Positions 1 to 63,107 of a DNA stretch of 64,000 nt are shown one piece after another (position 1 is the stretch's first letter; every line of letters starts with the position of its first letter). Location: the NCBI RefSeq assembly GCF_018446385.1, contig NC_055991.1, positions 95,339,712 to 95,403,711 on the forward strand, written 5' to 3'. Below the pieces are notes generated by a model. The model did no database searches. It had not been told where the DNA came from and worked only from the letters and a program-made list of their open reading frames with translations. This stretch comes from Zingiber officinale. Its lineage: Eukaryota > Streptophyta > Magnoliopsida > Zingiberales > Zingiberaceae. The translations under genes and the position numbers were made by a program.

Positions 1-733
1 GCACTCAGAGCCAACGCGCAAGCTTGTTTGCATCACTTACAAACCAGTAATGGAGACCATGGGATTTACTTAAAAATCCCTCTCCCACTTAGTTATTTAT
101 AAATGAGGAATTTTAACTATGCTAGCCTACTAAATATGTAAACTAACATGCACACACAGCACAATATAAAAGCAATAAATAGAAAATCTAATTTTCAACT
201 ATTATGACTTTTATCTCTTGTTGTCCTTCGTGTGTTGTCATCCCAAGCTGCTGCCATATTTGGCCACTGCCACCGGGTCTAGCTGTCGCATCCATCTTGC
301 TCCTAGTTCCGCTGCGCCTCTGGTCCTTAGAAAGTTCCACGCTTTGCAAGATTCGATCCGCGACATAAATAGAATTTTACATTTTGATCCTATATTCCTC
401 GAAGGAATGTACATGTAAACTAGATCGAACATAAAATAAAACTTACATCCATCGATCCTATATTCCATAAAAGGAATGTACATGTAACTAGATCAAAAAT
501 AAAATCCTAATAAAACCAAATACAGCTCCTGCTGTATTTTATAATACAAGCATGCACACACAATAAAATGCCCTTGACATGTCCAAGGGTCCAATCACAC
601 ACAAAATAACTATAAGTCATAATAGTTGGATCCTGCATCCACAAAGTTAGCACATCCTACTATTAACCTGCCTAAATTATGTATGACATGTGCATAATTA
701 AACTAATACCAAATACACAGAGGCAAAACCCTA

Positions 734-746
734 GCTCTGATACCAA
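734..746 (-). other. Primer-binding site (tRNA-iMet type), element A
   Basis: Minus strand reads TTGGTATCAGAGC two bases after the LTR end. This is the usual initiator-Met primer site of plant Copia elements. Confidence 0.85.
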
Positions 747-747
747 T

Positions 748-3294: not shown

Positions 3295-3682
3295 TTCATC
3301 AACAGCCGACGAGAAGGCAAGATTGTTTGTTTTTACATTCATATTGTTTCTTCTTCTTGTGTATTCTTGTACTCCTATTCTTGCTGGTGCAAGAAAGATT
3401 GTGGCGAGGTTTCTCCACCCAGAAGGAGTGTATATATTAGCCGGTTCTCCGGGGACTCATCCACCGACGGATTGATAGGCTTCGTCCACCTTACGGACAC
3501 GCCGAGGAGTATGAGTATATCTCCGAACCTCGTTACATCGACGCGTGTTGAGGTTTGATCTTCTTGTCTTTGTTTCTTTGTTTTATTTTCCGCTGCGCTA
3601 ACGTCAACTTGTAGAAAGAAACGAAGATTTGGGGTCGGCTATTCACACCCCCCCTCTCTAGCCGCGACCATCGATCCTAACA
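3295..3682 (+). mobile_element. 3' end fragment of an unrelated Copia-type LTR
   Basis: This 388-bp block matches neither flanking LTR. It carries a run of C followed by TCTCTAGCCGCGACC and ends ATCGATCCTAACA, a tail typical of R/U5 ends of another Copia group. At its right edge the sequence passes without transition into the middle of a Copia B LTR; at its left edge the terminus of element A abuts it. The simplest reading is an element inserted into B and then split by A; the rest lies off the left edge. A deletion-joined chimera is the alternative. Confidence 0.55.
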
Positions 3683-5750: not shown

Positions 5751-5751
5751 A

Positions 5752-5764
5752 TTGGTATCAGAGC
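5752..5764 (+). other. Primer-binding site (tRNA-iMet type), Copia B
   Basis: TTGGTATCAGAGC, one base after the LTR terminal CA. Confidence 0.9.
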
Positions 5765-6003
5765 TAGGGTTTTGCCTCTGTGTATTTGGTATTAGTTTAA
5801 TTATGCACATGTCATACATAATTTAGGCAGGATAATAGTAGGATGTGCTAACTTTATGGATGCAAGATCCAACTATTATGGCTTATAGATATTGTGTGTG
5901 TGATTGGACCCTTGGACATGTCTAGGGCATTTTATTGTGTGTGCATGATTGTATTATAAAATACAGCAGGAGCTGTATTTAGTTTTATTAGGATTTTATT
6001 TTT

Positions 6004-6139
6004 GATCTAGTTACATGTACATTCCTTTTATGGAATATAGGATCGATGGATGTAAATTTTATTTTATGTTCGATCTAGTTTACATGTACATTCCTTCGAG
6101 GAATATAGGATCGAAAAATGTAAAATTCTATTTATGTCG
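6004..6139 (+). repeat. 69-bp tandem duplication in Copia B leader
   Basis: Two copies of GATCTAGTTACATGTACATT followed by a near-identical stretch ending GGAATATAGGATCGA, with period 69. The same pair occurs inverted in element A (about 365-500). Confidence 0.75.
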
Positions 6140-6784
6140 CGGATCGAATCTTGCAAGGCGTGGAACCTTTTGAGGACCAGAGGCGCAGCGGAACAAGGAG
6201 CAAGATGGATGCGACAACTAGACATGGTGGCGGTGGCAAAAGATGGCAGCAGCTAGGGTTGGCGACACACGGAGGACAGCAATAGATAAAAGCCATAATA
6301 GTTGAAAATTAGTTTTTCTATTTATTGCTTTTTATGCTGTGTTGTGTGCGCTTGTTAGTATGCATGCTAAGTAGGCTAGCATAGTCAAAATTCCTCACTT
6401 TAAATAACTAAGTGGGAGAGAGATTTATTTTTAAATAAATTCCACGATCTCCATTACTGGTTTATAAGTGATGCAACAAGTTTGCGCGTTGGCTCTGAGT
6501 GCCTTCCTCCATATCGGATGAGCTTGTTTGCGGATCACTAGCTTAAACTTCCATTTTGGATGACTATAGGAAGTTAATTAAGAGCGTGTGATCTTCCCCA
6601 TCGGAAGGGGCATAATCTTATTAATGGACTTAGTGTCAAGTAATGGTATACACTTAGGCACATCTAATAGTATCTTCCTCATCGGAGTCACTGCTATTAT
6701 TTGTGTGACCGAAGAAAACCAACTATTAATTTGTCAAATAAATAGGTTGACAAGATAATAAAAGACTCCTCTTACAAATGTTTG

Positions 6785-7158
6785 ATTTTGTATACGTCCA
6801 CACTATCGTGGCATACAAAATTCACGGTGTTTGAGGAAATTTTATTTTGTTATAAAGATTTATTGACAAGATAATTAATGGGTAAAACCCTCCTCTTACA
6901 AATGTTTAAATTTTGTATACGTCCACACTATCGTGACATGCAAAATTCACGGTGTTTGAGGTGTTGGTGAATTTAAATAATATTATTTGAGGAATCAATG
7001 TTATTTTAAATTCAAAAGTTTTGACCAAATATTTGATCAAAGACAGATCAAGTATTAATTTTATTCGTCATAAAGTAAAGTTGACGAGATAATAAAATTA
7101 ATGGATAAAATCTCCTCTTTGATTTTGTATACGTCCACACTATCGTGGCATACAAAAT
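6785..7158 (+). repeat. Three dispersed 37-nt hairpins in Copia B leader
   Basis: Copies at 6785-6821, 6910-6946 and 7122-7158. Each has arms ATTTTGTAT / ATACAAAAT around an inner CCAC...GTGG pair. Copy 2 has ATGCAAAAT, which keeps a G-U pair, and GTGA, which breaks the outermost inner pair. Each is preceded by a GACAAGATAAT-like block and a CCTCTT block. No gag frame is visible in this stretch, so it looks like untranslated leader. Confidence 0.6.
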
Positions 7159-7384
7159 TCATGGGGATTTTAAAGAATTGATCTTGACCAAATATTTTTG
7201 TGATTCTTAGGATTTAAAATGTTTGTCAATCCCCTAGTTGTTATACTATAGAAAAGACTTAGTAGTCCAAATTGTAATGATTGGAAATATGACTTGGACA
7301 TTAAGGTTGACTGTCTTCTTAGAACTAAGAACAATATAGGTGTATTTAATTCATTAGTTGAAACATGTTTAGTGGTGTTATCTA

Positions 7385-10080
7385 CCAGAACCTGGAGTGT
7401 GGATACAGATGCCATTAATCATGTCTGCAATTCATTGCAGGGTTCCAGGAAACCCGACAACTAAATGAAAATAAAAACACCATCCACATGGGCATTACTG
7501 TAAAAGTAGCAGCTGTTGCAGTGGGAGAGGTTTATTCTCTAATAGGAATAAAATATGGATTATTAGAAATTATCTTTACATACTAAGTTTAGAAAGAACC
7601 TAATTTCAGTTTCTAAACTATTATAGAATAGATATTGTGTTTATTTTGATAACAAAGTTGTTATCAAGAAAAATAGGGAAGTTATCTATTCTGGTATGTT
7701 GGTTGGCAATTTATAATTCAATAACTCCCACGATGCAACAAATGAAAATTAGTAACACATCTTCTAACTTTAAGAGAAAGCAACCTTCGGAAATGAACCA
7801 ATTATATCTTTGGCATCTAAAGCTAGGTTATATTAACTTAAGTATGATTCATTGGTAGCTGATGAACTTTTAGGTTCATTAGTAGTGGAAATCTTTCCAA
7901 CCTGCGAGTCTTACTTGGAAGGAAAAATAACCAAGAAGCTTTTAAGTCTAAGGGGTATAGAGCCAAAGATATGTTGGAATTGGTTCATTCTGATTTGTGT
8001 GATCCTATGACTATCCAGGCAAGAGGTAGTATCGAATATTTCATCTATTTTATAGATAACTATTCAAGATACAAATACATTTACTTAATGTGCCGCAAGA
8101 CTAAGTACTTTGATTAGTTCAAAGAGTACAAGGCTGATGCGGAGAAACGTCAAAGTAAAAGTATCAAGACACTACGGTGAGATCGTAGTGGCAAGTACCT
8201 CTTGGGAGAATTTAGGAGTCACTTATCAAAAGTAGGGATTCAATCCAAACTAACTGCACCTTGTACACCCCTACTGAATGGTGTAAAAAAAAGGAAGGTA
8301 TAGGACTCTTATGGAAATAAGTAGATTGATGATGAATTATTTGGAAAATTACCAAATTCATTTTAAGGATATACTCTAGAAACAGAAGTGAACATAGTAC
8401 CTTCCAAAGTCAGAACTCTCTACCCATATAGAATTGCTAAATAGGCATAAGCCTATTTTGAAGCATATTCGGATTCGGGTAGTCCAGCACATATGCTGAA
8501 GAGAGACAATGATAAGTTGGACAGGAATTCACTTGTTTGTAAGTTATCCTAGAGAAATGAAAGTAGGTTTATAGTCTTTAAAATCAGAAGGTCATTGTTA
8601 GCATCAATGATCGATTTTTAGAAAAGGACTATGTAATAAACCACAAGCCCATAAGTAAATTTGTTCTTAAAGAAATTATAAAGGACATGTCTAATCTAGT
8701 ACCAACTGTACAAGATGAAATATCACAAGAAACTGCAACACGTATCACAATTGATACACAATTATAGACAGTACATCATCGTAGTGGGAGGGGTTGTCAA
8801 ACAACCAAAAGGATTTATGTTTTGGGAAAGTTTTTGGACTTGATCCCAAATGAACATGAGTCTGATCCCGGAAATATGATGAAGCACTCCAAAATAAAGA
8901 TGCATCATCTTGGCAAAGAGCAATGAATACAGAATTAGAATATAAGTATTCTAATCAAATCTGGAAGCTTGTAGAACCACCAGATGGTGTAAAAACCATT
9001 GGGTGAAAATATGTCTACAATAGGAAAAGATGGATAGACAGGAAGGTGGAAACTTTCAAAGCAAGGCTTGATGAAAAAGGAAACTTTTTCACTGGTAGTC
9101 ATGCTTAAGTCTATCCGGATTCTTTTATCTATTTAGCAAGTGGATGCCAAGACAGCATTCCTTAATGGAAGTCTTGAAGAAAGCATCCATACAAAACAAC
9201 CAGTAAGGGTTCATTGCAAAGGGCAAAGAGCATTTTGTGTGCAAGCTCAATCAGTCTATGGACTGAGGCAAAGCTTCAAGGTCTTGAAACATCCGGTTTA
9301 TCAAAGGAATCCTGTCCTATGGATTTATTTAGTAACCGGATAAGTCTTGTGTATACAAAAGGTGTGATGGAAACATGGTGATATTTCTTGTACTATACGT
9401 AGATAACATTTTTGGTAGTTGGAAACAATATCAAAATGTTGTCAGAAGTAAGGGTATGGTTGTCCAAACAATTCGATATGAAGGACTTAGGAGAATGAAT
9501 ATATTCTTGGGATCAAAGTAATAAGGGATCGCAAGAAAAGAATATTTTAATTATCCCAAGCTTCATATATCGGAAAAAAAAAAATCCTTGCTCATTTTAA
9601 GCATGCAAAACTCCAAGAAAGGTTTCTTACCTTTTTAGCATGGAGTAACTTTATCTAAAGAAATGTCTCCGTAGACATCAAAGGAGATAAAGGACATAAA
9701 GGCAGTTCCTTATGCTTCGGCTGTGGGAAGCCTAATGCATGCAATGCTGTGTACGAGACTGGATATCTATTTTGCCGTGAGCATAGTTATTAGATATCAA
9801 AGCAACTCTGGACAAGGACATTGATCTGCGTTAAAGCATATATTGAAGTACCTTAGAGGCACTAGAGATTACATGCTAGCTTATAAGGCAGATAATTTGT
9901 TTCCTGAGGGTTGCATGGATTTTGACTTCCAATCAGATAGGGACAATAATAAGTCAACCTCGGGGTTTTGTGTTTACTTTAGGAGGAAAAGTCATAACTA
10001 TGGAAGAGTGATAAGCATAGGTGTTTTTCTGGACTCCACCATAGAAGCTGAGTATATGGCAAGCCTCTGAAGTAGCCATA
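7385..10080 (+). pseudogene. Copia polyprotein remnant (protease, integrase, RT, RNase H)
   Basis: Broken pieces appear in Copia order. A protease-like segment (about 7387-7540) reads VDTDAINHVCNSLQGFQET, with the active-site glycine position altered. Then come a pre-integrase piece containing WHLKLGYINLS (about 7815-7860), integrase pieces (about 7970-8300), and RT from about 8910 including VDAKTAFLNGSLEE (9140-9190) and a YGLRQ motif. RNase H spans about 9840-10070, with KSTSGFCVYF and EAEYMASL. Stops and frameshifts separate almost every piece, so the enzymes cannot be made from this copy. Confidence 0.85.
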
Positions 10081-10407
10081 AAAGATAAATGACTCAATAA
10101 CCTCAAGATGGACTTAGATATGATTTCTGGTTTGTCCAAAGATTATTACAATTCATTGTAATAATAGTGGTGCAGTAGCAAACTCGAAGAAACCATAAGT
10201 CTATAAGGCAAGTAAACGCAATAGAGCGCAAGTATCACCCAATACGAGAAATCATATAAACGAGAAGAAGTTGTTGCTGCCTAGATTGCATCAAGTGATA
10301 ACCTAGAATATTCTTTCACTAAAGCCCTTAAGGCAAGAGCTTTTGATGGACATGTTGAAGGTTTGGGAATCAGATGTATGGTAGCAGTTATGGCAGCTTA
10401 GTCTTTT

Positions 10408-10423
10408 AGTATAAGTGGGAGAT
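10408..10423 (+). other. Polypurine tract of Copia B
   Basis: AGTATAAGTGGGAGAT lies immediately before the TGTTAGAATG start of the 3' LTR. This is the normal plus-strand priming position, and it fixes the element's orientation. Confidence 0.85.
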
Positions 10424-13008
10424 TGTTAGAATGTATACTAAAAGCATAGCTTTTGGTATAAACATTTATCTAGAAATAAGAATCACATTGGTCAAATGTC
10501 TACATTTATGATAAATGTAGTTGTTCAATTAATATTGTAGATAACATGGTGTGTGGTGTCACACACAGAAGATCATGTTATCAGTACCTTATAAATTATA
10601 AATAGTAGCTCACGACCAAGATGGAAAGGAACAAACCATTGGAAGGTCGTAGTGTAATTAGGTATTAGTTTATCTTAACTATATAATTACACTAGTACAC
10701 TTAGAGTGTATTGAGTAGGACCATTAGAGGTCATTTCTTTTATACTGACTTTATAAAGGAACAAAGACCTCAGTTATTATGGAAGTGTGTGCTCTTAATC
10801 CCAATATAATAACAAGCACATATATTTGATATTTATTTCTTTAATTTATCAATGGGTGAGATTTAGTTCGATAAATCAATAAGCCCGATAAGTTGGGAAA
10901 TGATATCACTTATAGTGTGTGTTGTTGATTATAGAAGGAAACTGTGTCCTAGTAATCTAGGTTGAGAATGTCCCCAAGAGGAGCTCATAAGGATTGTCAT
11001 GTTAAATCCTGCAGGTGGACTTAGTCCGACATGACAATGAGGTTGAGTGATACTACTCTTGGACTAAGATATTAATTAAATGAGTTGTCAGTAACTCACT
11101 TAATTAGTGGACATTCGACATCTTAAACACAGGGAGACTAACACACTCATATAAGAAGGAGCCCAAAATGTAATTTGGGGTTGGTGCGGTAGTTCAATAA
11201 TAGTTCTCTAGTGGAATGAATTATTATTGATAAAATTAAGTTATGTGTTCGGGGCGAACACGGGATGCTTAATTTTATCGGGAGACCAAAACCAATTCCT
11301 CCTCTCGGTCCCTATCGTAGCCTCTTAATTATAGAGTACTATACTCACCTATACCCACCTTCTTACCCATCCTGTAGGGGCCGGCCAAGCTAGCTTGGAG
11401 ACCAAGCTAGGGCCGGTCATGGCTAGGTTCATGGGTGAATTCATGTGGCCGACCCTAGCTTGAACTCAAGCTTAGGTGGCCGGCCCTATTAAAATAAAAA
11501 GGAATTTTAATTTTAAAAATTTTCTTATGTGGATAACATGATTTAAAAGAGAGTTTAAAATTTTAAATCTTTCCTTTTTATAAGATTCTACAAAAGATTA
11601 AGAGAAGAGCTAAATCTCTTTCCTTATTTCTAGATTAAAAGGTTGATTTTAATTTTGGTAAAAACTTTCCTTTTAATCATGTTCATGATTTAAAAGAAAG
11701 TTTAAAAATTAAAAATTCTCTTTTATTAGTTTCTACAAAAGATTAAGAAAAGATTTAATATCTTTCCTTATTTGTAGATTGAAAGGAGATTTTAATTTTT
11801 AGAGATAACTTTCCTTTTTAGAAATTATCCACATGTTTAAAAGAAAGTTTTTAATTTATAAAATTTCCTTCTTATTAACCAATCATGAAGGGATAAAAAT
11901 TATTGGAGAAATTTTTATAAATTTCCGGAAGCAAATAAGGAAGTTTTAATTTGTGTTTAAAATTTTATTTGCTTGGAGATATTAATGTGGCCGGCCATTG
12001 AAATTGAGAAAATAATTTTGATTTTAATTAATTAAAATTTTTCCTTTTCATGGCAAAAGAATTAAGGAAGTTTTTATTTAAATTTCCTTATTTGCCAAGA
12101 CCAAGGATTATAAAAGAGGGGGTAGAGGTGCCTTCATGGCGAACGACTCTATTATTTTCTCCTCTCTTTTTCTCCTTGGGTGTGGTCGGCCCCTTCTCTT
12201 TCTTTCTTCTCCATCTTGTGGCCGAACCTCTTCATGCTCTTGGAGTTTTAATTGGTGGCCGGATTCTAGCTTGGAGAAGAAGGAGAGAAAGCTTGCATCC
12301 CTTGGAGCTTGGTTGGTGGAAAAAGTTCTTCATCCTTTGGAAGTTTTTGCTTTGCCGAAACTTGAAGGAAGAAGAAGAAGGTGCTAGGTGGTTCTCGTCT
12401 CGGAAGATCATTGTCCACACAATGTCCGAGATTAGAACAGGAATACGGTAGAAGATCAAGAGGTCATTGTCTTCAAAGAAAGGTAAAACTAGTAATTGTT
12501 TCCGCATCATACTAGTTTTGTTTTTTTTTGTAAAAATACCAAATACAAGAGGCATGCGATTCTAGTATTTCGAATTTGTTTTCGATGTTGTGTTTTTTTA
12601 GTTTTTCTTTTCCTTGTGATTTGATTGTTCTTTTCGGTTGACCTAAAGTTATTTAAGGAAATTAAATATTAGTTTTCCTTAAAAGGCTTTGTCTAGTCGG
12701 TGGTGGTTGTTCCCATATCCAAGAAGGCCATGTGCCTCGCCACGTCAGTACTGGAAGCCAATTTTGGAAATTAATATTTAATATAATTAATAACTTAGGT
12801 GATTTGGATCGAAAGTGTTAAGTTCCGCAGGAGATCCAAGTCAAAACCTAAAAGAACAAATAGACTAAACTTTGGATCAAACGTGTTAAGTTCCGCAGGC
12901 GATCCAAGTTTAATTTAAAAGAACACATGGTAGCTAGGAAAATGTTCAGACCTTTGTACAAAATTTTTGTACAGTGGAACCATTAGATTTTCCGAGTAGC
13001 AACCAACA
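10424..13008 (+). repeat. 3' LTR of Copia B (complete)
   Basis: 2,585 bp, TGTTAG...CCAACA. It carries a TATA box at 12109-12115 and the AT-rich internal repeat block (about 11490-11940). The first about 515 bases are the segment missing from the 5' LTR; the same bases are present inverted in element A (about 2765-3294). Confidence 0.9.
12109..12115 (+). promoter_or_regulatory. LTR TATA box, Copia B 3' LTR
   Basis: TATAAAA in the same context as the 5' LTR copy. Transcription from here would read into the gypsy remnant. Confidence 0.55.
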
Positions 13009-27027: not shown

Positions 27028-27838
27028 TGATCCTGTCCGAACGCTGAATTAACATACGCTGGGTACGAGGCGCTCTCTGAAGGGCTGACGTAGACCTCCG
27101 ACCAGTCGTGTGGACCTCCGGCGAACCTGCAAAGAAGTCGGCCCGGGAAGGGATTCCCGCCGACGACCCTCCGACGCTCAAGTCAGGCAAGAGGAAATGC
27201 AGAAGTGGCTTCGAATACGGGAGAATGCGTACCTCCGATGAAGTGTGAGGCTCCTTATATAGAGCTGTGAAGAGGCTCACGCGCATATACCGAGGCGAAT
27301 ACGTGTCCTCTAACCATACCTCAGTATGAGCTTGTCAGAAGAGCTTACCTGACACCATACTGCTACAGTCCGCGCACATTTCTGATGGGACAGCCGAACC
27401 CTATGTCGTAAAATCCTGCGTATGGCCTGGTTGTTGAACATACCCGCTGTTAGAAGATGTTCCCTTGTCCTTTTGTCTCTTCTTGCCCCATTCCGAGCGT
27501 CCGGCCGGTCAACAGTCCCACCATGTCCGGCCGGTCGTATGTGCTAGTCCGCTCGGGAGATTCCCGGTTGTGTGCTCTGTGGAGACTGTTCGCAGTATTA
27601 CTACTTTATGCCTTCGGCCGAGTGGGTTACACGCTCGGCCATACAACCCTGTTCAACATGAGCGTCGGAACCCCGACTCCCCGCCGAGGTGTCTTTACTT
27701 CCGTTCGGAACGTTCGGCCGGTCGCCCCAATCTTTATCCGCTCAGACAAACCCATGGTTGAACTTTTACCTTTCAACCTCCACGTGGCGTTGACTCTGCT
27801 TAAAGGGGGGTCCCCTCTCCTTACTACGTACCGGATCA
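27028..27838 (-). repeat. 3' LTR of Tat element C
   Basis: 811 bp, direct repeat of 37059-37865, TGATCC...GGATCA. On the minus strand its TATA box and downstream end face the DUF3754 start codon. Confidence 0.93.
27255..27261 (-). promoter_or_regulatory. TATA box of Tat C 3' LTR
   Basis: TATATAAG on the minus strand, conserved in the 5' LTR (37286-37292) and in Tat D (62183-62189). It is placed to drive transcription out of the element into the gene starting at 26650. Confidence 0.6.
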
Positions 27839-27853
27839 CTTGCCTCCCCTTCA
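27839..27853 (-). other. Polypurine tract of Tat C
   Basis: Minus strand TTGAAGGGGAGGCAAG directly before the 3' LTR. It is identical in Tat D, and it fixes the minus orientation. Confidence 0.85.
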
Positions 27854-28204
27854 AGTCTAGTCGAAAGAGGCGATTAGTCCGACTGACTGGACCATCAGTT
27901 GTGTCGAGCGGCGTCCATATGCATCTTTGCTTCCGCTCGGACACACGGGGGCAGCTAAAACGCCAGTCAACGCCAACATTCCTCGGTATCTTTTCGAAGT
28001 TTTCGCCAATCTCCATCATTAAAGTCGAGCACGCGCTCATTAAATGCTTTCCAGTGACCGAATGCCACGTGTCGAGGCTGCCGTCATTGTACAGTGGCGG
28101 CGTGGTGTTCTGACGGGATCGAGGCGGTTCGAAATGAACGGTGCGATGCGTGCTCCGATTCTCGCGACCTGAATCCGACGGTGGAGGCCGCTCGGGCTCC
28201 ACCC

Positions 28205-28210
28205 TATAAA
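28205..28210 (+). promoter_or_regulatory. TATA box of the antisense gene in Tat C
   Basis: CCACCCTATAAAGG on the plus strand, about 295 bases before the antisense ATG and followed by a pyrimidine-rich leader. The block GGAGGCCGCTCGGGCTCCAC just before it is unchanged in Tat D (63080-63099), unlike the diverged LTRs. Confidence 0.65.
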
Positions 28211-28499
28211 GGCTTCGCTTTCTTCCTTCGCCGCATTTCTGCTCTCACGTGCTCCATAGCTTCTCGCTCTCAGCATTCCGGCGACCCTGTTCTTCTATTC
28301 TCCGACGATCTCCGGCGTTCTTTCTTCGATCCTCCTTGTTCCCTGTAAGGCTCTTCCTCTGCTCTATCTTTGGTTCTTGTGGTTCGTGTTTCTTTGCGTT
28401 TCCTTCCCGAGTTTTAGCTCTTGGGGCACTGTTTCGTTTGCCATCTTCTTTCTTTTATCCTCTGCCTTTCGTCTATTTTTGGTTTCGTCCGCTCGGCCA

Positions 28500-30737
28500 A
28501 TGGCTAGCTCCTCCCAACCTCTAGACTAAGCCCTCGGCCCATGGTATACTACCATGGAGTCGCGCTTCGATCAGCGCGACGTCGATGTTTTGATGTATAA
28601 TTTTGACATCTCATCTGACTTCGAAATTATCTTACCCACTTCCTCCGCTCGACCTCACAAACCGCCGCGCGGAGCCTTTTGTGTTTTCCGCGACCAGTTC
28701 ACAGCCGGTCTGCGATTTCCCATTCATCCCTTCATCGTTGAAGTCTGCAATTTTTTCGGCATTCCGCTCGGAAGCCTAGTCCCCAATACTTTCCGTCTTT
28801 TATGCGGCGTCGTTGTCTTGTTCAAAATCCACCACATCCCCCTCCGACCGGAGGTTTTCTATTATTTTTATTACCCTAAACAGTCCAAGCTGGGCACATT
28901 TATGTTCCAGGCTCGTCCCGGTTTAGTTTTCTTCAATAAACTTCATTCTTCCAATAAGCATTGGAAAGAATTCTACTTCTACCTTCGTATGCCCGAGCGG
29001 GCCCCCTTCCTAACGAAGTGGCAGATCGGATCACCAACCTCACCAGAGCTCAAAAGGTTCAAAACCCGACCGGACTATCTTCATGCCGCCAACATGCTGG
29101 CCGGTCTGAGGTTTGACATCAACAAATTCCTGCCTGAAGGGGTGATGTATATATTTGGTCTGAGTCCGATCAGGACCCCCCTTCCGAGCGGCTTCGGTAA
29201 TAATTTTACTTTGTGCATTTGTTTTAATTGCTAACTGATTTTCTCTGTTTTCCTTTGCAGCAAACATTGTCATGGTGTCGGTGATGGCTGGAATTTTGAA
29301 GAGGAAGGCGGCAGCGCTCGAAGCCGCGGCGGCCAAAGAAATGGAGACGCTCGGCATCTAGCCGGTCGGCTCTAATGAGGGAGAGAGTGAGACAAATGCT
29401 GGGGAGTCGGCCGCTCAGGCTTCTCTCCCAGAGCCAGTGGCTGGCGCAACTGCTAGTCGAGAGCCTTCCGTCCGGGATGAAGGCTCGGCTCAGGAGGAGG
29501 AGCGCCCCTTCATCAAAAACGACGCCGCACGGAGATACCGCTCCGCTCGGCTACATTGCGGTTCATCCATCCGAGCGGGCAACCGATACTTCTCGAGGCA
29601 AAGCGCCAGAGGTGGAGGCGATTTCGTCCGATCGGACGCCCTCTCAACTAGACGCGTCTGCGGACCCCCTTGAGGCCGTTCCGATCAGCGCCCTTCCACC
29701 CGCTCCCCGCCAGGTCCAACGTTCAACACTTTTTGTCCCAGTTTTCGGCGTCGGCCTCTGATCCTTCCCCGGCTTCCGCCCAGACAACGCCCGATCGGCG
29801 CCACACCATCCGGGTTTCCCTGCATCTCCCCACCGAGGAATTACTGCCCAAAGCTGATCGGCCAACAACGCCCGAGAACCTGATCACAATGAAAGGGCCC
29901 TTAGCTGAAATGTGGGCCGACGCTCGGGCACGCGTCGCAATGATTCCCCTCAGTAATCTGGCCAACAGCCACATGCAACAGGCCACGGGGGTAAGTTTAT
30001 TTTCTATAGTCCTTTACGCATTCTCTCCGACTGGCTTCTAACAACTTTGCTCGTGACAGAGATGGGTGGAGGAGATTGTCGTTTACAATCGTCCGGCGAT
30101 GGCGGACGCAGAATTAAAGAGGCTGAAGGCTCCAAGCGGCCCTTCCGGCTCACAAGGTCCATCATACGCCGAGCTGCAAAAAGAGCTCAAAAAGACCCAA
30201 GATTTACTGGGGTCCGAGCGGAAGAAGACGGCTGACCAGACGCACAATCTAGCCGAACTTGATCGCCTGAACAAATCACTGGAACGCAAGATAAGCCTGG
30301 CCACCCAGCAGAAGAAAACGACTATCTCCGATCTGGAGAAGAAGAACGTAGAGGCTCGGGGGCTGGAGCAAAAAGTTAAAGAGCTGATGGACCAACTGGC
30401 CAATGAGAAGACTGCCCGCTCGGATGAGGTGACGAAACTCGAGGCTATTTTACAAGAACACCAGGCAGCCGCCGATGATTCCCGAGCGGCACTTAAAGAA
30501 TATCAAGAGGCTGAGCCAAGCCGAGTCGCCGCCCTAAGACAGAATTACATCCGTTCGGCCGAATTTTCGGAGAAAGTTTGCAAGCGGATGTACATGGCCT
30601 TTGAACTTGCCATGAATGCCATGACAAAATATTTGAAGTCCAAAGGGCAACTTCCCGATTCCGCCGTTATCCCCGCTCAGGACCAGGCAACACTCCTCAA
30701 CAACATCCCGAAGAATCTCTATGAGTATTTAGAATAG
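28500..30737 (+). pseudogene. Antisense ORF of Tat C: gypsy-type transposase-like domain plus coiled coil
   Basis: Runs opposite to gag-pol. Exon 1 starts at ATG 28500 but meets TAA at codon 10 (28527); an in-frame ATG at 28554 opens 214 codons to the donor at 29196/29197. These contain the PF04195-like plant domain (FCVFRDQFTAGL, VCNFFGIPLGSL, RPEVFYYFYYPKQ). An intron to 29260 (GTAATA...TTTGCAG) leads to exon 2, broken by TAG at 29359. Further frame changes follow at about 29500-29750. A second intron is 29991-30059 (GTAAGT...GACAG). The last exon, 30060-30737, encodes a Lys/Glu-rich coiled coil and a helical tail ending NNIPKNLYEYLE. Function unknown; related ORFs occur antisense in other Tat elements. 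This copy is damaged. Confidence 0.8.
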
Positions 30738-31059
30738 AAGTTTGCCTGTTATTCGGCCGCTCGGCCAAAAAAACTATCCCTTTTTGTACTCTGGCCACTT
30801 GACCTTAATTTCTTTAATGCTATCCTTTTACTTGCTTTTTCTTTTGCTAATCAATACGCATGTCGTCCGCTCGCCTCTTATCACACCTCTCTTGTGTTCG
30901 AAAGGGATTTTTACGAAGTATTTTGCATAGCTTTTCCACTCGGCTTAATATATCATGTCTCGACAAAAGAGGTTGTTCGCTGGGCGTTGACGAAGTACTT
31001 TTGGGTACTTGGCCGATCGACTAAATGACTCACCAGCGAAACCTCTTTATTGCATTCGT
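30738..31059. other. Non-coding spacer of Tat C
   Basis: Downstream of the antisense stop, before the repeat array. Contains TTTTGTACTC and pyrimidine runs that could serve as 3'-UTR. No ORF. Confidence 0.4.
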
Positions 31060-31775
31060 CCGGTCGGAGGGTTTATAGTCGCCGGCTCGACTCTCGATTT
31101 TTAACGTCGGAGCTCGACGGTCTTCCGCTCGGAGGGTTTATAGTCGCCGGCATGACTCTCGATTTTTAACGTCGGAGCTCGACGGTCTTCCGCTCGGAGG
31201 GTTTATAGTCGTCGGCTCGACTCTCTATTTTTAACGTCGGAGCTCGACGGTCTTCTGCTCGGAGGGTTTATAGTCGCCGGCTCGACTCTCGATTTTTAAC
31301 GTCGGAGCTCGACGGTCTTCCGCTCGGAGGGTTTATAGTCGCCGGCTCGACTCTCGCTTTTTAACGTCGGAGCTCGATGGTCTTTCGCTTGGAGGGTTTA
31401 TAGTCGCCGGCTCGACTCTCGATTTTTAACGTCGGAGCTCGACGGTCTTCCGCTCGGAGGGTTTATAGTCGCCGACTCGACTCTCGATTTTTAACTTCGG
31501 AGCTCGACGGTCTTCCGCTCGGAGGGTTTATAGTCGCCGACTCGACTCTCGATTTTTAACTTCGGAGCTCGACGGTCTTCCGCTCCGAGGGTTTATAGTC
31601 GCCGACTCGACTCTCAATTTTTAACTTCGGAGCTCGACGGTCTTCCGCTCGGAGGGTTTATAGTCGCTGGCTCGACTCTCGATTTTTAACGTCGGAGCTC
31701 GACGGTCTTCCGCTCGGAGGGTTTATAGTCGCCGGCACGACTCTCGATTTTTAACGTCGGAGCTCGACGGTCTTC
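31060..31775. repeat. 65-bp tandem array, about 11 copies, in Tat C
   Basis: Regular 65-bp period of GGAGGGTTTATAGTCGCCGG and CTCGACTCTCGATTTTTAAC, then CGTCGGAGCTCGACGGTCTT. Each unit holds two short inverted repeats (GTCG...CGAC and CGTCG...CGACG). Three middle units share CTTCGGAGC in place of CGTCGGAGC. Comparable 3' arrays are known in Retand and Grande elements. No unique spacers, so not a CRISPR. Confidence 0.95.
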
Positions 31776-31901
31776 AAGGCTAATTTTAACACTACCGTTT
31801 GGCGAAGCTTGGCAGATGCCTCTTTTTATCATTTTGCTTCTTGCATTACAAGGGCATATGCGACCAAAAGATACCCAAAATGAATTACATCAGCGCACCT
31901 C

Positions 31902-33098
31902 TCACTCAGCTCGGTACGACTGGAGATGATTTGCGCTCCATGGTCGATCCAGTTGCCGTCCATCTTTATCTTCTAAATAATAAGCACCCGAGCGGAGCTT
32001 TTCAATGACTTTGAAGGGACCCGCCCAAGGAGCCTCCAGCTTGCCAACGTCGCCGACCGGCTTTACTTTCTTCCACACTAGGTCGCCGACTTGGAATGCC
32101 CTAGGGATCACACGCCGGTTATAATTCTGCTTCATCGTCTGCCGGTACGCCATCAGCCGGACGGACGCTTTCGCTCGCTCTTCATCAATCAGGTCCAATT
32201 CCATGTTCCTCCGCTCGGCGTTATCATCATCATAATTCTGGATCCGGACGGACTCGACGCCGACTTCTACCGGGATAACCGCTTCACCGCCGTACACTAA
32301 ATGGAACGGCGTGACGCCCGTTCCCTCTTTTGGAGTCGTGTGGATGGCCCATAGGACGCCTGGCAGCTCATCCACCCAACTTCCTCCTATGTAGTCAAGT
32401 CGAGCTCGGAGAATTCTGAGTATTTCTCTGTTGGTTACTTCCGCTTGACCGTTACTCTGGGGATATGCTACGGAAGTGAAGTGTTGTTCAATGCCATAAC
32501 TTTTGCACCATTCTTCGAGCTGCTTCCCGACGAACTGCCGCCCGTTATCAGATATGAGCCGGTGAGGAATGCCGAACCGACAAATTATATGCTGCCAGAT
32601 AAATTTTTTGACCATTTGTTCTGTGACCCATTTGGAGAAATAGTCGACCGCCACCAATAGGAACTTCCGCTGACCGGTCGTCATAGGGAATGGACCCACG
32701 ATATCCATTCCCCACTGATCGAACGGACAGGCTACCATAGACGCTTTCATCTCCTCTGCCGGTCGGTGGGAGAAGTTGTGGTACTTCTGGCAGGAGAGGC
32801 ACGTCGCAACGGTCCGAGCGGCGTCTGTTTGCAGGGTTGGCCAGAAGTATCCGGCCAGCAAGATCTTCTTGGCCGTCCACCCGGATGTCCCCCACACGAT
32901 CCTTGGTGCACTTCGTGGAGGATGTACTCCACATCCTCCGAGCTTACACACTTCAACAGTGGACAAGAGAAAGCCTTCTTGTAGAGTTGGTCTCCAATGA
33001 GCGTGAATCGACCGACTCTCCTCCTTAATAGCTGGGCTTCCTCCCGATCGGAAGGTGTAGCACCCGAGCGGAGAAACTCCATGATGACCGTCCTCCAA
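31902..33098 (-). pseudogene. Tat C integrase segment of pol
   Basis: Holds the zinc-finger half (CLSCQKYHNF), the core with Asp in WGMDIVGPF, the second Asp in LISDNGRQFVG and Glu in QSNGQAEVTNR, then the C-terminal domain ending RPWSANHLQSYRAE and stop. The catalytic triad is present, but between the first and second Asp the segment AVDYFSKWVTEQMVKKF looks about 8 residues shorter than relatives. The frame differs from the upstream RT frame; a frameshift at about 32870-32895 in the zinc finger separates them. Confidence 0.88.
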
Positions 33099-35290
33099 TC
33101 GCTCGAAAACTCGAGGCCCTCCATCCGATCGATATGCGCCACCAGGGATACTTGCTCAATTGGCTGTTGTATGACGACCGGTGATATTGAACTTGCAAGT
33201 TTGGCTAACTCATCTGCAGCATGATTCTCCGCTCGGGGTATCTTCTGGATAATGACCTCTCTGAAATTGGCCTTGAGCTTTTCGAAGGCTTCAGCGTAAA
33301 GCTTGAGCCGAGTGTTGTTAATCTCAAAAGTGCCCGAGAGTTGCTGAGCGACCAACTGGGAGTCCGAATGGATTGTCACCCGACCGGCTCCTACATGCCG
33401 AGCTACCTGCAAGCCGGCTATGAGGGCTTTGTACTCTGCTTCATTATTTGTGGATCTGTAGTCCAGCCGAACGGATAGGTGCATCCTTTCTTCTTGGGGA
33501 GAGAGTAATAGCACGCCAACCCCGCTCCCGAGCCGAGTGGACGATCCGTCCACAAATATTTTCCACATGGCTTCGGGTTCTGGCTTTTGCACTTCGATGA
33601 CAAAATCTGCCAAGGACTGCGCCTTTATTGCCGAGCGGGGTTGATACTGGATATCAAACTCACTCAACTCCGTTGTCCACTTGATGAGTCGTCCGGACGC
33701 TTCTGGGTTCAGCAGCACTCTTCCCAATGGGATATTCGTCCGGACTATGATGGTATGTGCTAGGAAATAAGGACGAAGTCGTCGAGCGGGGAGGATCAAA
33801 GCAAAAGCCAGCTTCTCGAGCCCAATGTAGCGAGATTCAGCATCTTTTAAAATATGGCTTAAGAAATACACAGGTTCTTCTCCACTTGCCCTCACTAATG
33901 CCGAGCCTACTGCCTGTTCGGTTGAAGATAAATAGATATAGAGCGGCTCACCCATAGCTAGCTTGGCTAGCACGGGCAAAGAATTCAGATATGCCTTCAA
34001 TTTTTCAAACGTCCGATCGCATTCCTCGTCCCAATGGAACTTGGTAGCTTTGCGCAGGATTTTGAAAAAAGGGAAGCTCCGGTCGGCAGTCTTTGAGATG
34101 AATCTGGACAATGCTGTTATCCGACCGGTCAAGCGCTGTACTTCCCTTAGATTTCTTGGGGGGCGCATGTCTTGTAATGCTTTCACTTTGCTGGGATTGG
34201 CCTCGATGCCCCGCTCGGTCACTATATAGCCCAAGAAACGCCCGCCTTTTGCCCCGAACAGACACTTCTGAGGGTTCAGCTTAACTCCATACTTCCGCAG
34301 CGTTCGGAAAGTCTCTTCCATGTCTTTAAAAAGATCATCCGCTCGGATGGACTTTATGAGAATATCATCCACGTACACTTCCAAATTTCGTCCAATTTGC
34401 TCCTTGAACACTCTGTTCATCAGGTGCTGGTAAGTTGCTCCTGCGTTCTTCAATCTGAACGGCATTACATTGTAGCAATAAGTGTCGTCGGCCGTGACGA
34501 ATCTAACCTTTTCTTGATCCTCTCGGGCGAGCGACACTTGATGGTAGCCCTGATAGGCGTCGAGCATGCATATCAATTCGCAGCCAGCTGTGGAGTCCGC
34601 CAGTTGATCGATCCAGGGTAGAGGATAAAAATCCTTTAGGCATGCTTTATTGAGATCCCGGAAATCGATGCAAACTCTCCACTTGTTGCCCGACTTGGAG
34701 ACTAGCACCACGTTCGCCAGCCAGCTCGGGAACTGGACCTCGCGTATGTGGCCGGCCTCCAGGAGCTTCTCAACCTCCGCTCGGATGATGGCATTTTGTT
34801 CAGCGCTGAAGTCCCTCTTCCTTTGCTTCATCGGCAGAGCGTCCGGTCGGACGTGGAGCTCGTGCTGCGCTATACTTGGCGAAATTTCGGACAGCTCATG
34901 CATCGACCAAACGAAGACATCGCAGTTTTTCTGGAGACAATTGATCACTTCCTTTTTCTGGCTTGCCTCCAGATCGGCCGCGATGAAGGTGGTTGCTTCC
35001 TGCCGGGTCGGGTGAATCTGCACTTCCTCTTTTTCTTCATAAACCAAAGAGGGTGGTTTTTCGGTGATGGCGTTCACCTCGATCCGTGGCATTTTCCGGG
35101 CGGAGTTAGCTTCTGCTCGGACCATCTCAACGTAGCATCGCCGAGCCGCCAGCTGGTCTCCTCTTACTTCTCCTACTTTATCCTCCACCGGGAACTTGAT
35201 TTTCTGATGGAAGGTGGAGACGGCCGCTCGGAACTCGCTGAGCGTCGGTCGCCCCAAGATGACATTGTATGCTGAAGGAGAGTCGACCAC
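32880..35290 (-). pseudogene. Tat C reverse transcriptase, RNase H and second RNase H
   Basis: Long open frame. RT includes WRVCIDFRDLNKAC, MLDAYQGYHQV and the catalytic YVDDILIKS. A tether-type RNase H follows, then the extra RNase H specific to Tat: WKIFVDGSSTRLGSG, NNEAEYKALIAGL, IHSDSQLVAQQL, ENHAADELAKL, which keeps all four acidic residues. It is cut upstream by a shift in the protease and downstream by one at the integrase zinc finger. This is the best-preserved stretch of the element. Confidence 0.92.
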
Positions 35291-35372
35291 GACGAAGTTG
35301 GCAGTCCTCGCCCTTCTGAGCGGCTCCTCTCCCAGTGAAATAGCCAGTCGGACCTGTCCGACCGGCAGAACT

Positions 35373-35872
35373 TCATTGTCCGTAAACCCGTAGAGGGGGG
35401 GTTGTCATGGGCAGCAGCTCGGCTCGATCTATTTGCAGTTGGTCGAAGGCCTTCTTGAATATAATATTGACCGAGCTTCCTGTATCGATGAAAACGCGGT
35501 GAATAGTATAGTTAGCTATTACCGCTTTGATGAGGAGAGCGTCGTCATGTGACACTTCGACTCCTTCCAAGTCCCTGGGCCCGAAACTGATTTCGGGACC
35601 GCTCGCCCGTTCTTGGCTACAGCCGATCGCATGGATCTGAAGCTGTCTGACGCTTGCCTTCCTTGCTCTGTTGGAGTCGCCTCCGGTCGGCCCCCCAGCG
35701 ATGATGTTGATTTCGCCTCGGGAAGTGTTGCTTCTATTTTCTTCTTCCCGGGCGGACGGCCTAGGCCGCTCCTTAGATACCCGGGGATTGTCCTTGTGCC
35801 TCTGAGGACGATACCGCTCGGGAGACTACCTTCGATCGGCTTCATGGTGTCGTTGTCGCTTGTCGGATGATG
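35373..35872 (-). pseudogene. Tat C protease region, frameshifted
   Basis: Protease motif VFIDTGSSVNIIF with its active-site Asp lies in the frame read from 35570. The frame breaks at a run of seven G (35395-35401, C on the coding strand), after which the protease continues in the RT frame (35394 down to 35290). Upstream, 35872-35570 needs another frame change to link with the Gly/Arg-rich part behind gag. Confidence 0.82.
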
Positions 35873-35981
35873 GCGATCAACGGTGGCCGCCCCGAGGCAC
35901 GGGGTGGGCGATCAGGGGAAGGCTTCGGCAATCTCTTGTATTATGCGTGTCTGTCCTGTGGAATGAACAAAACATTGGGGT

Positions 35982-37022
35982 TCATACCTTCTTTTTAGGT
36001 TTGGGCCGCTCGGCAGCTACTTCTTGAATGGCGTGGGATCTTGCATGTTGCTGGGGGCGGGCTACTTCAGCTCGCGGTCCTCTGGGCGGCTGATGAGCAA
36101 TGTGCGGCTTCCGCTCGGCAGGGGGTGGACGCTCGGTTGGAGCTTCCTTCCTTCGGGCCGCCTGGGTTTCCCCCACATTGATATATTCATTAGCCCGGTG
36201 TAACATATGATCGTAGTCTCGGGGCGGCTTTCGAATAAGTGAACGGAAGAAGTCACCGTCCACGAGGCCTTGCGTGAAAGCATTCATCATCGTTTCTGAG
36301 GTGGCCGTTGGAATATCCATGGCCACTCGGTTGAATCGTTGGATATAAGCTCTGAGCGGCTCTCTGGGCTCTTGCTTGATGGCAAATAGGCTGACGCTAG
36401 TCTTCTGATAACGCCGACTTCTTGCAAAATGATGGAGGAAGGCCATGCGGAAGTCCTTAAAACTTGTAATGGATCCGTCCGGCAGCCTTCGAAACCACCG
36501 TTGTGCCGATCCCGAGAGAGTGGTAAGGAATACCCGGCACTTTACTCCATCTGTGTATTGATGTAGGGTAGCCGTGTTGTCGAACTTACCCAGATGATCG
36601 TCCGGATCGGTGGTTCTGTTGTATTCACCGATCGCAGGGGGCACATAGTGCTTTGGTAGAGGGTCCTGCAGGATGGCCTCTGAAAATTGCCGGTTGATCC
36701 GCTCGGGGGAGGTGTCCGTTCGGGGGGCCTTGCCTTTTCTGTTGTCTCGCATAGGCGCCTCGTCGGATGAAGATCTTCGATCACGATTAATTGTTGCGGC
36801 TTCAGGAGGCGTATGAAATAGGGCCCGATGAAATGAAACCGTGGCTGGCGGTACTTTCGCTCGGCCTCCCGATGCGGACGTTGCTTGTTGCTCGATCTGC
36901 TCGGCTTGTGCCTTCTGTTTTTGTTCAACAAGCTTAGTCGCTCTTGTCTCGATCAGAGTGTCGAGCTCCTCAGTGGAGAGCATCACCGTATGCGGTCGTC
37001 CAGCTTCGTCCATTTCTTCCAC
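35982..37022 (-). CDS. Tat C gag protein
   Basis: Intact frame of 346 residues, starting MEEMDEAGRPHTVML just downstream of the primer site. The retrotransposon gag domain is recognisable around 125-260 (VFLTTLSGSAQRWFRRLPDG, FLHHFARSRRY, AYIQRFNRVAMDIP, TMMNAFTQGL). A basic, proline-rich tail ends RPKPKKKV. It forms the particle shell in active relatives. The stop at 35982 lies before the protease. The zinc-knuckle region is not evident in this frame and may be in the damaged linker. Confidence 0.85.
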   Translation of the reverse strand: MEEMDEAGRPHTVMLSTEELDTLIETRATKLVEQKQKAQAEQIEQQATSASGGRAKVPPATVSFHRALFHTPPEAATINRDRRSSSDEAPMRDNRKGKAPRTDTSPERINRQFSEAILQDPLPKHYVPPAIGEYNRTTDPDDHLGKFDNTATLHQYTDGVKCRVFLTTLSGSAQRWFRRLPDGSITSFKDFRMAFLHHFARSRRYQKTSVSLFAIKQEPREPLRAYIQRFNRVAMDIPTATSETMMNAFTQGLVDGDFFRSLIRKPPRDYDHMLHRANEYINVGETQAARRKEAPTERPPPAERKPHIAHQPPRGPRAEVARPQQHARSHAIQEVAAERPKPKKKV

Positions 37023-37035
37023 TCGGATGCAGGTA

Positions 37036-37058
37036 CGTTCCCACAGACGGCGCCAAAT
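37036..37058 (-). other. Primer-binding site of Tat C
   Basis: Minus strand TTTGGCGCCGTCTGTGGGAA follows the 5' LTR end. This is the form common in Tat/Athila elements. Confidence 0.85.
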
Positions 37059-37865
37059 TGATCCTGTCTGAACGCTGAATCAACAGACGCTGGGTACGAG
37101 GCGCTCTCCGAAGGGCTGACGTAGACCTCCAACCAGTCGTGTGGACCTCCGGCAAACCTGCAAAGAAGTCGGGCCGGGAAGGGGTTCCCGCCGACGACCC
37201 TCCGACGCTCAAGTCAGGCAAGAGGAAATGCAGAAGTGGCTTCGAATACGGGAGAATGCGTACCTCCGGCGAAGTGTGAGGCTCCTTATATAGAGTTGTG
37301 AAGAGGCTCACGCGCATATACCGAGGTGAATACGTGTCCTCTAACCATACCTCAGTATGAGCTTGTCAGAAAAGCTTACCTGACACCATACTGCTACAGT
37401 CCGCGCACATCTCTGATGGGACAGCGGAACCCTCTGTCGTAAGATCCTGCGTATGGCCTGGTTGTTGAACATACCCGCTATCAGAAGATGTTCCCTTGTC
37501 CTTTTGTCTCTTCTTACCCCATTCCGAGTGTCCGGCCGGTCAACAGTCCCATCACGTCCGGCCAGTCGTATGTGCTAGTCCGCTCAGGAGATTCCCGGTT
37601 GTGTGCTCTGTGGAGACTGTTCGCAGTATTACTACTTTATGCCTTCGGCCGAGCGGGTTACCCGCTTGGCCATACAACCCTGTTCAACATGAGCGTCGGA
37701 ACCCCGACTCCCCTCCGGGGTGTCTTTACTTCCGTTCGGAACGTTCGGCCGGTCGCCCCAATCTTTATTCGCTCAGACAAACCCATGGTTGAACTTTTAC
37801 CTTTCAACCTCCACGTGGCGTTGACTCTGCTTAAAGGGGGGTCCCCCCTCCTTACTACCGGATCA
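37059..37865 (-). repeat. 5' LTR of Tat element C
   Basis: 807 bp, ends TGATCC...GGATCA, TATA box at 37286-37292 (minus). Confidence 0.93.
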
Positions 37866-38029: not shown

Positions 38030-39975
38030 ATACCCATGGTCATACCTTATTCCTTCTCTTATAAACACGAAACTATCATGAACCTCCTCCGGTTACCAAA
38101 CCTCCTCCTACAATTTGACAAGATTGTAAAAGAGTAATTAGAGTGAGATATTATTGTAAGGGTTTCAAGAGGTGACTTTAACATACAACAGGGTTCAAAA
38201 ACAATGTTGTTGAAGATCATCCCCATTAAAGGACAAATTTCAAGCCAGAGTGAAATTGGTAGAATAAGACATAAAGATTTAGCGATGTACGTATCAATTT
38301 ACTACTATAAAATTGATTTGTAGTGTAAAAAAAATAGTATATACTTTTATAACAAAAGGTAATTACAGAAATCATATTTATGGTGGCAATGGATGTCTAG
38401 GTAAGAATTATGGAAGAACATCTATAATATGGGCCCTCCATTACTTAATCAGTTTACAAGATACTCCACTGTGATGTTAGATTTCAGTTAGATTTTGCTC
38501 ATGCACGTTCAACTGATATGGTAGGAATCAACATGTTGAGCCTAATATGCGATCATATCAGGCCTACTTTGTTCCTTGATCAAAACTGTAGTTTAATATC
38601 ATATCTAACTTCTCCTCACTCAACCCTTCGTAGTGATTGGGAGTTTACATAAATCCAATTATCTTAGATCCATAAGTGGATTTTGATCAAAACATACTGA
38701 TGGGTCTAGACATATTTGATTACACTCATTTAAAATCTTGTAAGTTTTTGGTGTTGCAAGTACTCAAATGGTTATATCCATTACTATTAAGCTCTCCAAA
38801 GGTGCACCAACGTTATGATAAATTTCACCCATTACATATCCGTCGCCAACAGCGATGGATTTTTTGAAATATCTGTCGCCAGTAGTGACGAAAATATAAT
38901 TTTCCTTCACAATTAGCGATAAATATATTGGTATCCGTCTCTAATGGCTAAACGTCGATACTCTCTTTCGATATTATAGGAATTAGGACTTAGCCACGGA
39001 TATATTGGTCTCACCCTCTCTCTATCCATACCTTCTTCCTTCTTTTATAAACATAAAACCATCATGAACTTCCTCCGGTTACCAAACATCCTCCTACAGT
39101 TTGGTAGAATTACAAAAGAGTAATTAGAGTGGGATATTATCATAAGGATTTCAAGAGATGACTTTAAAGGACAACAACATTCAAGAACAACGTTGTTGAA
39201 GAACATCACCATTGAAGGACAAATTTCAAGCAAGAGTGAAATTGGTAGAAGAAGACAAAGATTTAGCGATATACGTATCAATTTGCTACTATAAAATTGG
39301 TTTGTAGTGTAAAAAAAATAATATACACTTTTATAACAAAAGATGATTACATAAATCATATTTATTGTGTCAATGGATGTCTAGGGAGGAATTATGGAAC
39401 AACACCTACAATATGGGCCCTCCATTACTTAATCAGTTTGCGATGTACTCCACTGTGATGCTAAATTTCAGCTAGATCTTGCTCATGCACGTTCGGCTGA
39501 TATGGTAGGTATCAACACGTTAGGTCTAATATGCGATCATATCACGCACACTTTGTTCCTTAATCAAAACTTTGGTTTGATACCATATCTACTTTCTCCT
39601 CGCTCAACCCTTTGTAGTAATTGGGAGTTTACATAAATCTAATTATCTTAGGTTCATAAGTGGATTTTGATCAAAACACTAATGAACTTAAACATGTTTG
39701 ATTGCACTCATTTAAAGTCTTGTTAGTTTTTAGTGTTGCAAGGAGATAAATGGTTATATCCATTACTATTTAAAGCTCTCCAGAGGTGCTCCAACGTTAT
39801 GATAAATTTCACCCATTATTATCCGTCGCCAACAACGATGGATTTTTTGAAACATTCGTCGCCATTAGCGACGGAAATATAATTTTCCTTCACAATTAGC
39901 GACGAATATATTGGTATCTGTCGCTAATGGCTAAACGTCGATACTCTCTTTCGATATTATAGGAATTAGAATTGC
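38030..39975. repeat. About 985-bp tandem duplication, GCGACGG-rich
   Basis: Copy 1 (about 38030-39010) and copy 2 (about 39015-39975) align with offset 983-986. Shared anchors are CTCCTCCGGTTACCAAAC-like strings (38084, 39070) and AACGTCGATACTCTCTTTCG (38951, 39934). Divergence is visible throughout. The last about 150 bp of each copy, and the sequence on to 40165, are packed with CCGTCGC / GCGACGG / CCGTTGC motifs in both orientations, like the subterminal regions of CACTA-type transposons. No transposase and no clear terminal repeat found. Confidence 0.7.
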
Positions 39976-63100: not shown

Positions 63101-63107
63101 TATAAAA
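63101..63107 (+). promoter_or_regulatory. TATA box of the antisense gene in Tat D
   Basis: CCACCCTATAAAAAG, in the same conserved block as at 28205 in Tat C, about 280 bases before the ATG. Confidence 0.65.

Follow-up and report, generated by a model that had tools for sequence, protein, structure and literature searches.

The analysed window comprises 64,000 nucleotides of the ginger genome (Zingiber officinale, contig NC_055991.1, positions 95,339,712 to 95,403,711 of the forward strand). It contains element C, a Tat-type long terminal repeat (LTR) retrotransposon on the minus strand (27028-37865), and within it a plus-strand gene, which is located between the integrase and the 3′ LTR and runs opposite to gag-pol. 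A TATAAA box is found at 28205-28210, about 370 bp inside the edge of the 3′ LTR. Exon 1 extends from a putative start ATG at 28500 to 29196 and is followed by intron 1 (29197-29260, 64 nt, phase 1), which would stop the reading of an unspliced RNA by an in-frame stop codon, the linker exon 2 (29261-29990), intron 2 (29991-30059, 69 nt, phase 0) and exon 3 (30060-30737), which encodes the C-terminal region and is open in the window. Both introns have GT-AG borders, and the putative spliced product comprises about 700 residues. An antisense gene with a promoter of its own and these two introns had been proposed before by a model that saw the letters only (referred to as the original prediction), and its exon borders, 29196/29261 and 29990/30060, could be confirmed.

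The open reading frame (ORF) of exon 1 contains a PF04195 domain (Transposase_28, TRP28) at 28683-28874, which had been described as PF04195-like and was detected with 36.8 bits, above the gathering cut-off of 26.2 (E 4.7e-9). In a search of solved structures with exon 1, a single match with an E-value of 0.47 was obtained and taken as chance. Exon 2 resembles a linker; in the nine copies of set 1 (see below) in which it is open and has a length of 731 nt, proline, serine and threonine together make up 27%. Residues 35-160 of exon 3 (30162-30539) show a hydrophobic period of 3.5 residues and contain 2% proline and glycine. None of 2000 shuffles gave an equally strong heptad signal, in agreement with the coiled-coil end that had been predicted. 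The signal is weaker at residues 160-225 (P 0.0115) and missing at residues 1-40. A Pfam scan of exon 3 at E-values up to 1 resulted in five weak families, and bZIP was not among them.

For the comparison of copies, the genome assembly (3.09 Gb, 211 contigs) was searched and two sets were compiled, both of them small compared to the thousands of copies. For set 1, the region 28150-28553 was used as DNA query and the best 40 of 3101 candidates were scored, leading to 40 places including that of the window. The other 39 were extracted, L032, L034, L037, L040, L042 and L046 were left out as incomplete, and the final set consists of 33 copies and element C. Since its copies were chosen by similarity to this query, set 1 carries a bias toward the promoter region. 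Set 2 contains 20 further copies from the best 40 of 2152 candidates, chosen by their exon 1/exon 2 flanks and irrespective of promoter and intron. One of them, L072, has neither the promoter nor the end of exon 1 and was excluded from the selection and stop codon analyses of exons 1 and 3 in this set.

The ATG at 28500 is present in all 34 copies of set 1 and in 19 of the 20 copies of set 2 and is probably the start codon. An unaltered TATAAA box was found in 31 of 34 and 19 of 20 copies, respectively, the remaining copy of set 2 being gapped there, and the box was compared with random nearby columns (P 0.0017 in set 2 and 0.048 in set 1). It recurs at 63101-63106 in element D, a further element at the right end of the window, so that the claim of a TATA box in a block common to both elements held. 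Of a putative promoter like that of gene23 from the maize element Grande, the sequence shows this conserved box.

The two introns occur throughout the family. For intron 1 of set 1, 33 of 34 copies have the donor GT and all 34 the acceptor AG; for intron 2 the numbers are 33 of 34 and 33 of the 33 copies with letters at this position. In set 2, GT and AG of intron 1 are both intact in 17 of 20 copies, with two donor changes among the 19 having letters there, and intron 2 is bordered by GT-AG in all 20. The interior of intron 2 is fast-changing: in set 1 its divergence of 0.246 is the highest of eight stretches, and in set 2 (0.213) it is second to the 5′ untranslated region (5′UTR; 0.217). Within this background the splice bases of intron 2 are more conserved than random interior columns (P 0.0033 and 0.022).

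Selection on the codon level was analyzed by the ratio of nonsynonymous to synonymous differences (pN/pS). In set 1, pooled ratios of 0.224 (exon 1) and 0.267 (exon 3) were obtained, with values below 1 in 560 and 561 of 561 pairs, respectively, compared to 1.02-1.46 for the shifted plus-strand frames of both exons. For exon 2, the spliced frame gave 0.23 in set 1 as well as in set 2 (1.4-1.7 in shifted frames), and the ratio is low across all four quarters of the exon. For exons 1 and 3, set 2 resulted in 0.21 and 0.25, and 0.2-0.3% stop codons were counted in the coding frame vs. 2.5-5.7% in the five other frames. One minus-strand frame is also low (0.31 and 0.37 in set 2, with 4.6% and 3.0% stops), which we regard as a reflection of the plus-strand frame. 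As noncoding controls, the 5′UTR gave 0.66-0.80 in all six frames and a short upstream stretch 0.44-1.28; a pN/pS moderately below 1 can thus arise without coding. With increasing pair distance in set 1, the ratio of exon 1 drops from 0.41 for the closest to 0.18 for the most distant pairs, and that of exon 3 from 0.37 to 0.22, followed by 0.28 in the most distant bin. This corresponds roughly to selection while an element is active and decay after insertion. Among the sampled copies, purifying selection acts on each of the three exons when they are read in the spliced frame. A ratio near 1 across the family, which the original prediction had named as one half of the counter-evidence, is excluded, as the called frame has a ratio of about 0.2 and the other plus-strand frames reach about 1 or higher.

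The same data bear on the idea that the antisense transcript works as RNA, pairing with the genomic RNA, feeding small interfering RNAs and restraining the element, with the ORF as a by-product. Sense and antisense RNA would have an overlap of 2.2 kb or more, from the start of exon 1 to the stop of exon 3, and a role of this type was raised as one possibility in a 2020 review (PMC7264820). Codon-level selection in three exons is unexpected for an RNA-only function, although both roles can coexist, and an RNA acting in place of a protein appears very improbable.

The exons could also be two or three separate antisense ORFs expressed from different RNAs, the presumed introns being unspliced spacers. 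ORF scans do report exon 1 and exon 3 as distinct ORFs, 104 antisense ORFs in 63 clusters were listed in a survey of Retand elements (PMC11963269), and exon 2 has an in-frame ATG of its own at 29272, four codons in, which is conserved in 32 of the 34 set 1 copies and in 19 of the 20 set 2 copies, so that a separate start is possible. However, GT-AG borders and phases agree between two subfamilies (see below), the splice bases of intron 2 stand out in the fast-changing intron, and the exons are constrained in the splice-joined frame regardless of intron length. The intron lengths span all three classes modulo 3 (15, 10 and 8 of 33 copies for intron 2 of set 1), whereas a single class accounts for 27 of 33 and 14 of 20 copies in exon 2 and for 21 of 33 and 14 of 20 in exon 1 (sets 1 and 2, respectively). 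Furthermore, the unspliced reading ends at a stop codon in intron 1 in all 11 set 1 copies whose exon 1 is open and correct in length, and for this reason the selection on exons 2 and 3 requires either splicing or separate starts. Altogether, independent ORFs appear improbable, and a single gene joined by splicing is preferred.

Retrocopies that have lost their introns were searched for in the genome. With up to three mismatches, the unspliced borders were detected 3181 times for exon 1/intron 1, 1888 times for exon 2/intron 2 and 4535 times for intron 1/exon 2 (reversed-pattern controls: 0, 0 and 91). Neither of the two spliced junctions of the C family was found at the same threshold, a search that covered the junctions of this family and that diverged junctions would escape. 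Likewise, a 126-nt spliced-junction query gave half-matches only among the best 40 of 2152 candidates, the longest of 70 bases and none full-length. The zero count fits with introns on the non-genomic strand, kept through reverse transcription, as the original prediction had argued.

A more distant group, subfamily A, was obtained by a genome search with PF04195 (best 150 of 24,227 candidates), from which 20 loci were extracted and 19 aligned, L067 being excluded. In 16 of the 20 loci exon 1 gives one long match to that of C with 31-37% identity; L066 has 29%, and L054, L061 and L067 match in shorter pieces (28-43%). Position and phase of intron 1 are the same as in C, with GT and AG each present in 18 of 19 loci. 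The same applies to intron 2, with 13 of 14 for each border; here 14 loci could be read, as L053, L059, L061, L065 and L066 contain other sequence at this site. Because of the same place and phase in both groups, both introns seem to be older than the split of C and subfamily A in the ginger genome. Exon 3 of subfamily A aligns to that of C with an hhalign probability of 92% (E 5.8e-7) and an offset of 8 residues relative to the intron, a score of the kind that coiled coils can inflate; exon 1 compared to the same exon 3 gave nothing (0.1%). A TATA box is located 138-145 nt upstream of the start in six of eight loci, one of them after correction for an upstream ATG. The pooled pN/pS is 0.25 for exon 1 and 0.27 for exon 3, with values below 1 in 162 of 171 and 65 of 91 pairs, respectively, the remainder being 1 or higher or undefined.

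In one locus of subfamily A, L062 (1-2403), the frame continues without a stop across intron 1 and into exon 2, and intron retention would result in a longer protein and not in a stop. Two loci, G000:C9:95187001 (808 amino acids) and G000:C10:89747756 (713 amino acids), have long open frames with full-length matches to the plant mobile domain (PMD) and are perhaps host genes.

The copy in the window itself is decayed. In exon 1, a TAA at 28527-28529 follows nine codons past the ATG at 28500, with an in-frame ATG downstream at 28554, and exon 2 contains a TAG (29359-29361) and changes its frame twice. Due to these lesions, the copy in element C is a pseudogene, which could yield fragments at most. 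Of the original prediction, a selected, intron-bearing antisense gene in a Tat element stands; the broken state of this particular copy had been overlooked. In element D, exon 1 (63383-63991, plus strand) continues toward the end of the window and has an upstream in-frame ATG without the stop found in element C. Between C and D, omega is 0.16 over 188 codons of exon 1, compared to 1.06 and 2.31 in shifted frames. A broken copy is in line with chance ORFs and chance splice motifs within a repeat, but this explanation is refuted by the frame-specific selection, the shared introns also speak against it, and it can practically be dismissed.

The classification of the host element is based on its coding regions. 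Two LTRs flank gag, reverse transcriptase with RNase H, and integrase in the order of gypsy elements. In the ORF of the reverse transcriptase, RT_RNaseH (residues 448-545) is followed by RVT_3 (580-699) and RNase_H (577-699), and the integrase is encoded in the next ORF; thus a second, archaeal-type RNase H is located between the first one and the integrase. Such a second RNase H ahead of the integrase is characteristic of Ogre and Retand, the Tat elements of angiosperms (PMC6317226), and element C is a Tat-type Ty3/gypsy retrotransposon. As an antisense ORF with PF04195 above the cut-off is present between pol and the 3′ LTR, its lineage within Tat is probably Retand.

Antisense TRP28 ORFs are present in 97% of the recently active Retand clusters according to Vicient (2025), about half of the recent clusters contain tandem arrays, and a DNA-binding capacity was predicted (PMC11963269). 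These ORFs resemble the gene of element C in place, orientation, PF04195 content and nearby tandem repeats. An earlier survey detected Transposase_28 in 23% of the Retand elements (PMC6317226). Ogre elements, which belong to the Tat clade as well, share with element C an intron and extra domains, but their extra domain is in most cases PMD (57% of the elements) and not Transposase_28 as in Retand (PMC6317226). The Retand survey was carried out with ORF Finder on genomic DNA, whereas the ORFs are here interpreted as exons of one gene; a term search of its main text did not return the word intron. The survey also reports further antisense ORFs, with matches to SMC, polymerase III gamma/tau and similar domains (PMC11963269). 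The SMC-like and the polymerase III gamma/tau-like ORFs may be counterparts of exons 3 and 2, respectively.

The Grande paper of Gomez-Orte from 2013 is said to report alternative splicing of gene23. This maize gene has its own promoter and a nuclear product (Vicient and Casacuberta, 2020; PMC7264820). Going by its description, it is similar to the gene of element C in being antisense and located between pol and the 3′ LTR, with a promoter upstream (PMC7264820). Antisense ORFs, which the original prediction had named for Grande-type elements, are not confined to these, as the survey of recent Retand clusters cited above shows. The authors of the 2020 review urged to look for antisense and spliced transcripts (PMC7264820). 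In the literature searched, which left most subscription journals outside, conserved introns uniting the antisense TRP28 ORFs into one gene were not recognised. Retand antisense TRP28 ORFs and a separate promoter in Grande have been published. What we propose is that the ORFs encoding TRP28, the linker and the coiled coil represent the exons of a single gene.

To our knowledge, TRP28 does not occur in HBZ and APH-2, the antisense genes of the human T-cell leukemia viruses HTLV-1 and HTLV-2. Both are spliced antisense retroviral genes, as proposed for the gene of element C (PMC3185765). HBZ is nuclear, has a C-terminal zipper and damps sense transcription, which makes it the nearest working analogy (PMC3185765). 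In contrast to element C, HTLV antisense transcription begins in the 3′ LTR (PMC3185765) and an animal virus is concerned; the likeness is taken as an analogy.

The gene structure, its conservation, the selection acting on it and the fact that no intron loss was found are direct observations. Starting from these, RNA polymerase II would transcribe the strand opposite to gag-pol from the TATA promoter inside the element, near the 3′ LTR. The spliceosome would excise the two short introns and join the TRP28, linker and coiled-coil exons into the reading frame for one protein, as suggested by frames, splice sites and selection. The introns would persist because the genomic RNA that is reverse transcribed bears their complement unspliced and the spliced antisense RNA has no way back into the element. 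The protein would act in trans, most likely as a nuclear dimer or oligomer formed via the coiled coil, on the DNA of the element or its transcription. We therefore propose a spliced antisense gene of a Tat-type, probably Retand, element that encodes a nuclear, trans-acting accessory protein, and estimate the probability of this reading at roughly two in three. A nuclear accessory protein is the most likely product; its specific role is a guess.

The same gene could have a different job, serving packaging, nuclear import or RNA export and not the control of transcription or silencing. For such proteins, a role in importing the pre-integration complex has been suggested (PMC7264820), and a Cer1 protein is needed for the export of genomic RNA (PMC10309623). 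We regard this as possible, if on the unlikely side, and keep the nuclear regulator acting on DNA or transcription as the preferred interpretation.

Several observations weigh against this interpretation, in addition to the ATG in exon 2. The spliced frame is open in only one of the 34 copies of set 1. The splice bases of intron 1 do not exceed the intron interior in the C family (P 0.14 and 0.30), since the entire intron is conserved there. A silent gene would equally give no spliced retrocopies, and the subfamily comparison is confined to one genome. Finally, the structure prediction suggested for the domain did not yield a usable fold: models of the TRP28 region from two window copies reached a mean pLDDT (predicted local distance difference test) of 33.6, and DNA binding and nuclear action therefore rest on the papers on relatives.

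With the proposed model, the scattered antisense ORFs of a widespread plant retrotransposon lineage would become a single gene model with exact junctions. It accounts for the persistence of introns in a retroelement and names a protein candidate for a role in transposition or silencing. In a more far-reaching version, the Retand antisense region might represent a single spliced gene of ancient origin, with a full-length product that can come from the antisense strand only. Its TRP28 coiled-coil protein would bind element DNA and counter host silencing or switch the element between expression and quiescence, and retention of intron 1 would result in a short TRP28-only brake. We consider this version improbable; if it were true, the separate antisense ORFs across flowering plants would be exons of that gene.

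The remaining features of element C are as follows. The 3′ LTR (27028-27838, minus strand) has a length of 811 bp and is bordered by TG and CA, and the 5′ LTR is located at 37059-37865 (minus strand); the ends of both were set by eye. Over 800 nt (27028-27827 vs. 37059-37858) the LTRs are 96% identical. At the place of a 5-bp target site duplication, the sequences flanking the element are atatc and atata and lie within an AT-rich repeat. On the minus strand, gag is encoded at 35982-37022 (Retrotrans_gag, E 2.3e-19), the reverse transcriptase with the two RNase H domains at 32747-35290 (RVT_1, RT_RNaseH, RVT_3/RNase_H) and the integrase at 31902-33098 (rve, E 6.8e-14). Between the antisense gene and the integrase, a tandem array was detected (31056-31775), in which a 65-bp unit is repeated about 11 times.

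Upstream of the TATA box, a plus-strand ORF of 218 amino acids (27457-28113) extends across the edge of the 3′ LTR and is probably due to chance. A direct duplication of about 945 bp with 88% identity (38041-39969) adjoins the 5′ LTR on its outer side. Large inverted and direct repeats are located at 168-12816 of the window, for example 2563-3187 vs. 10527-11151 (inverted) and 3894-4193 and 11151-11450 (direct), which suggest nested or duplicated elements.
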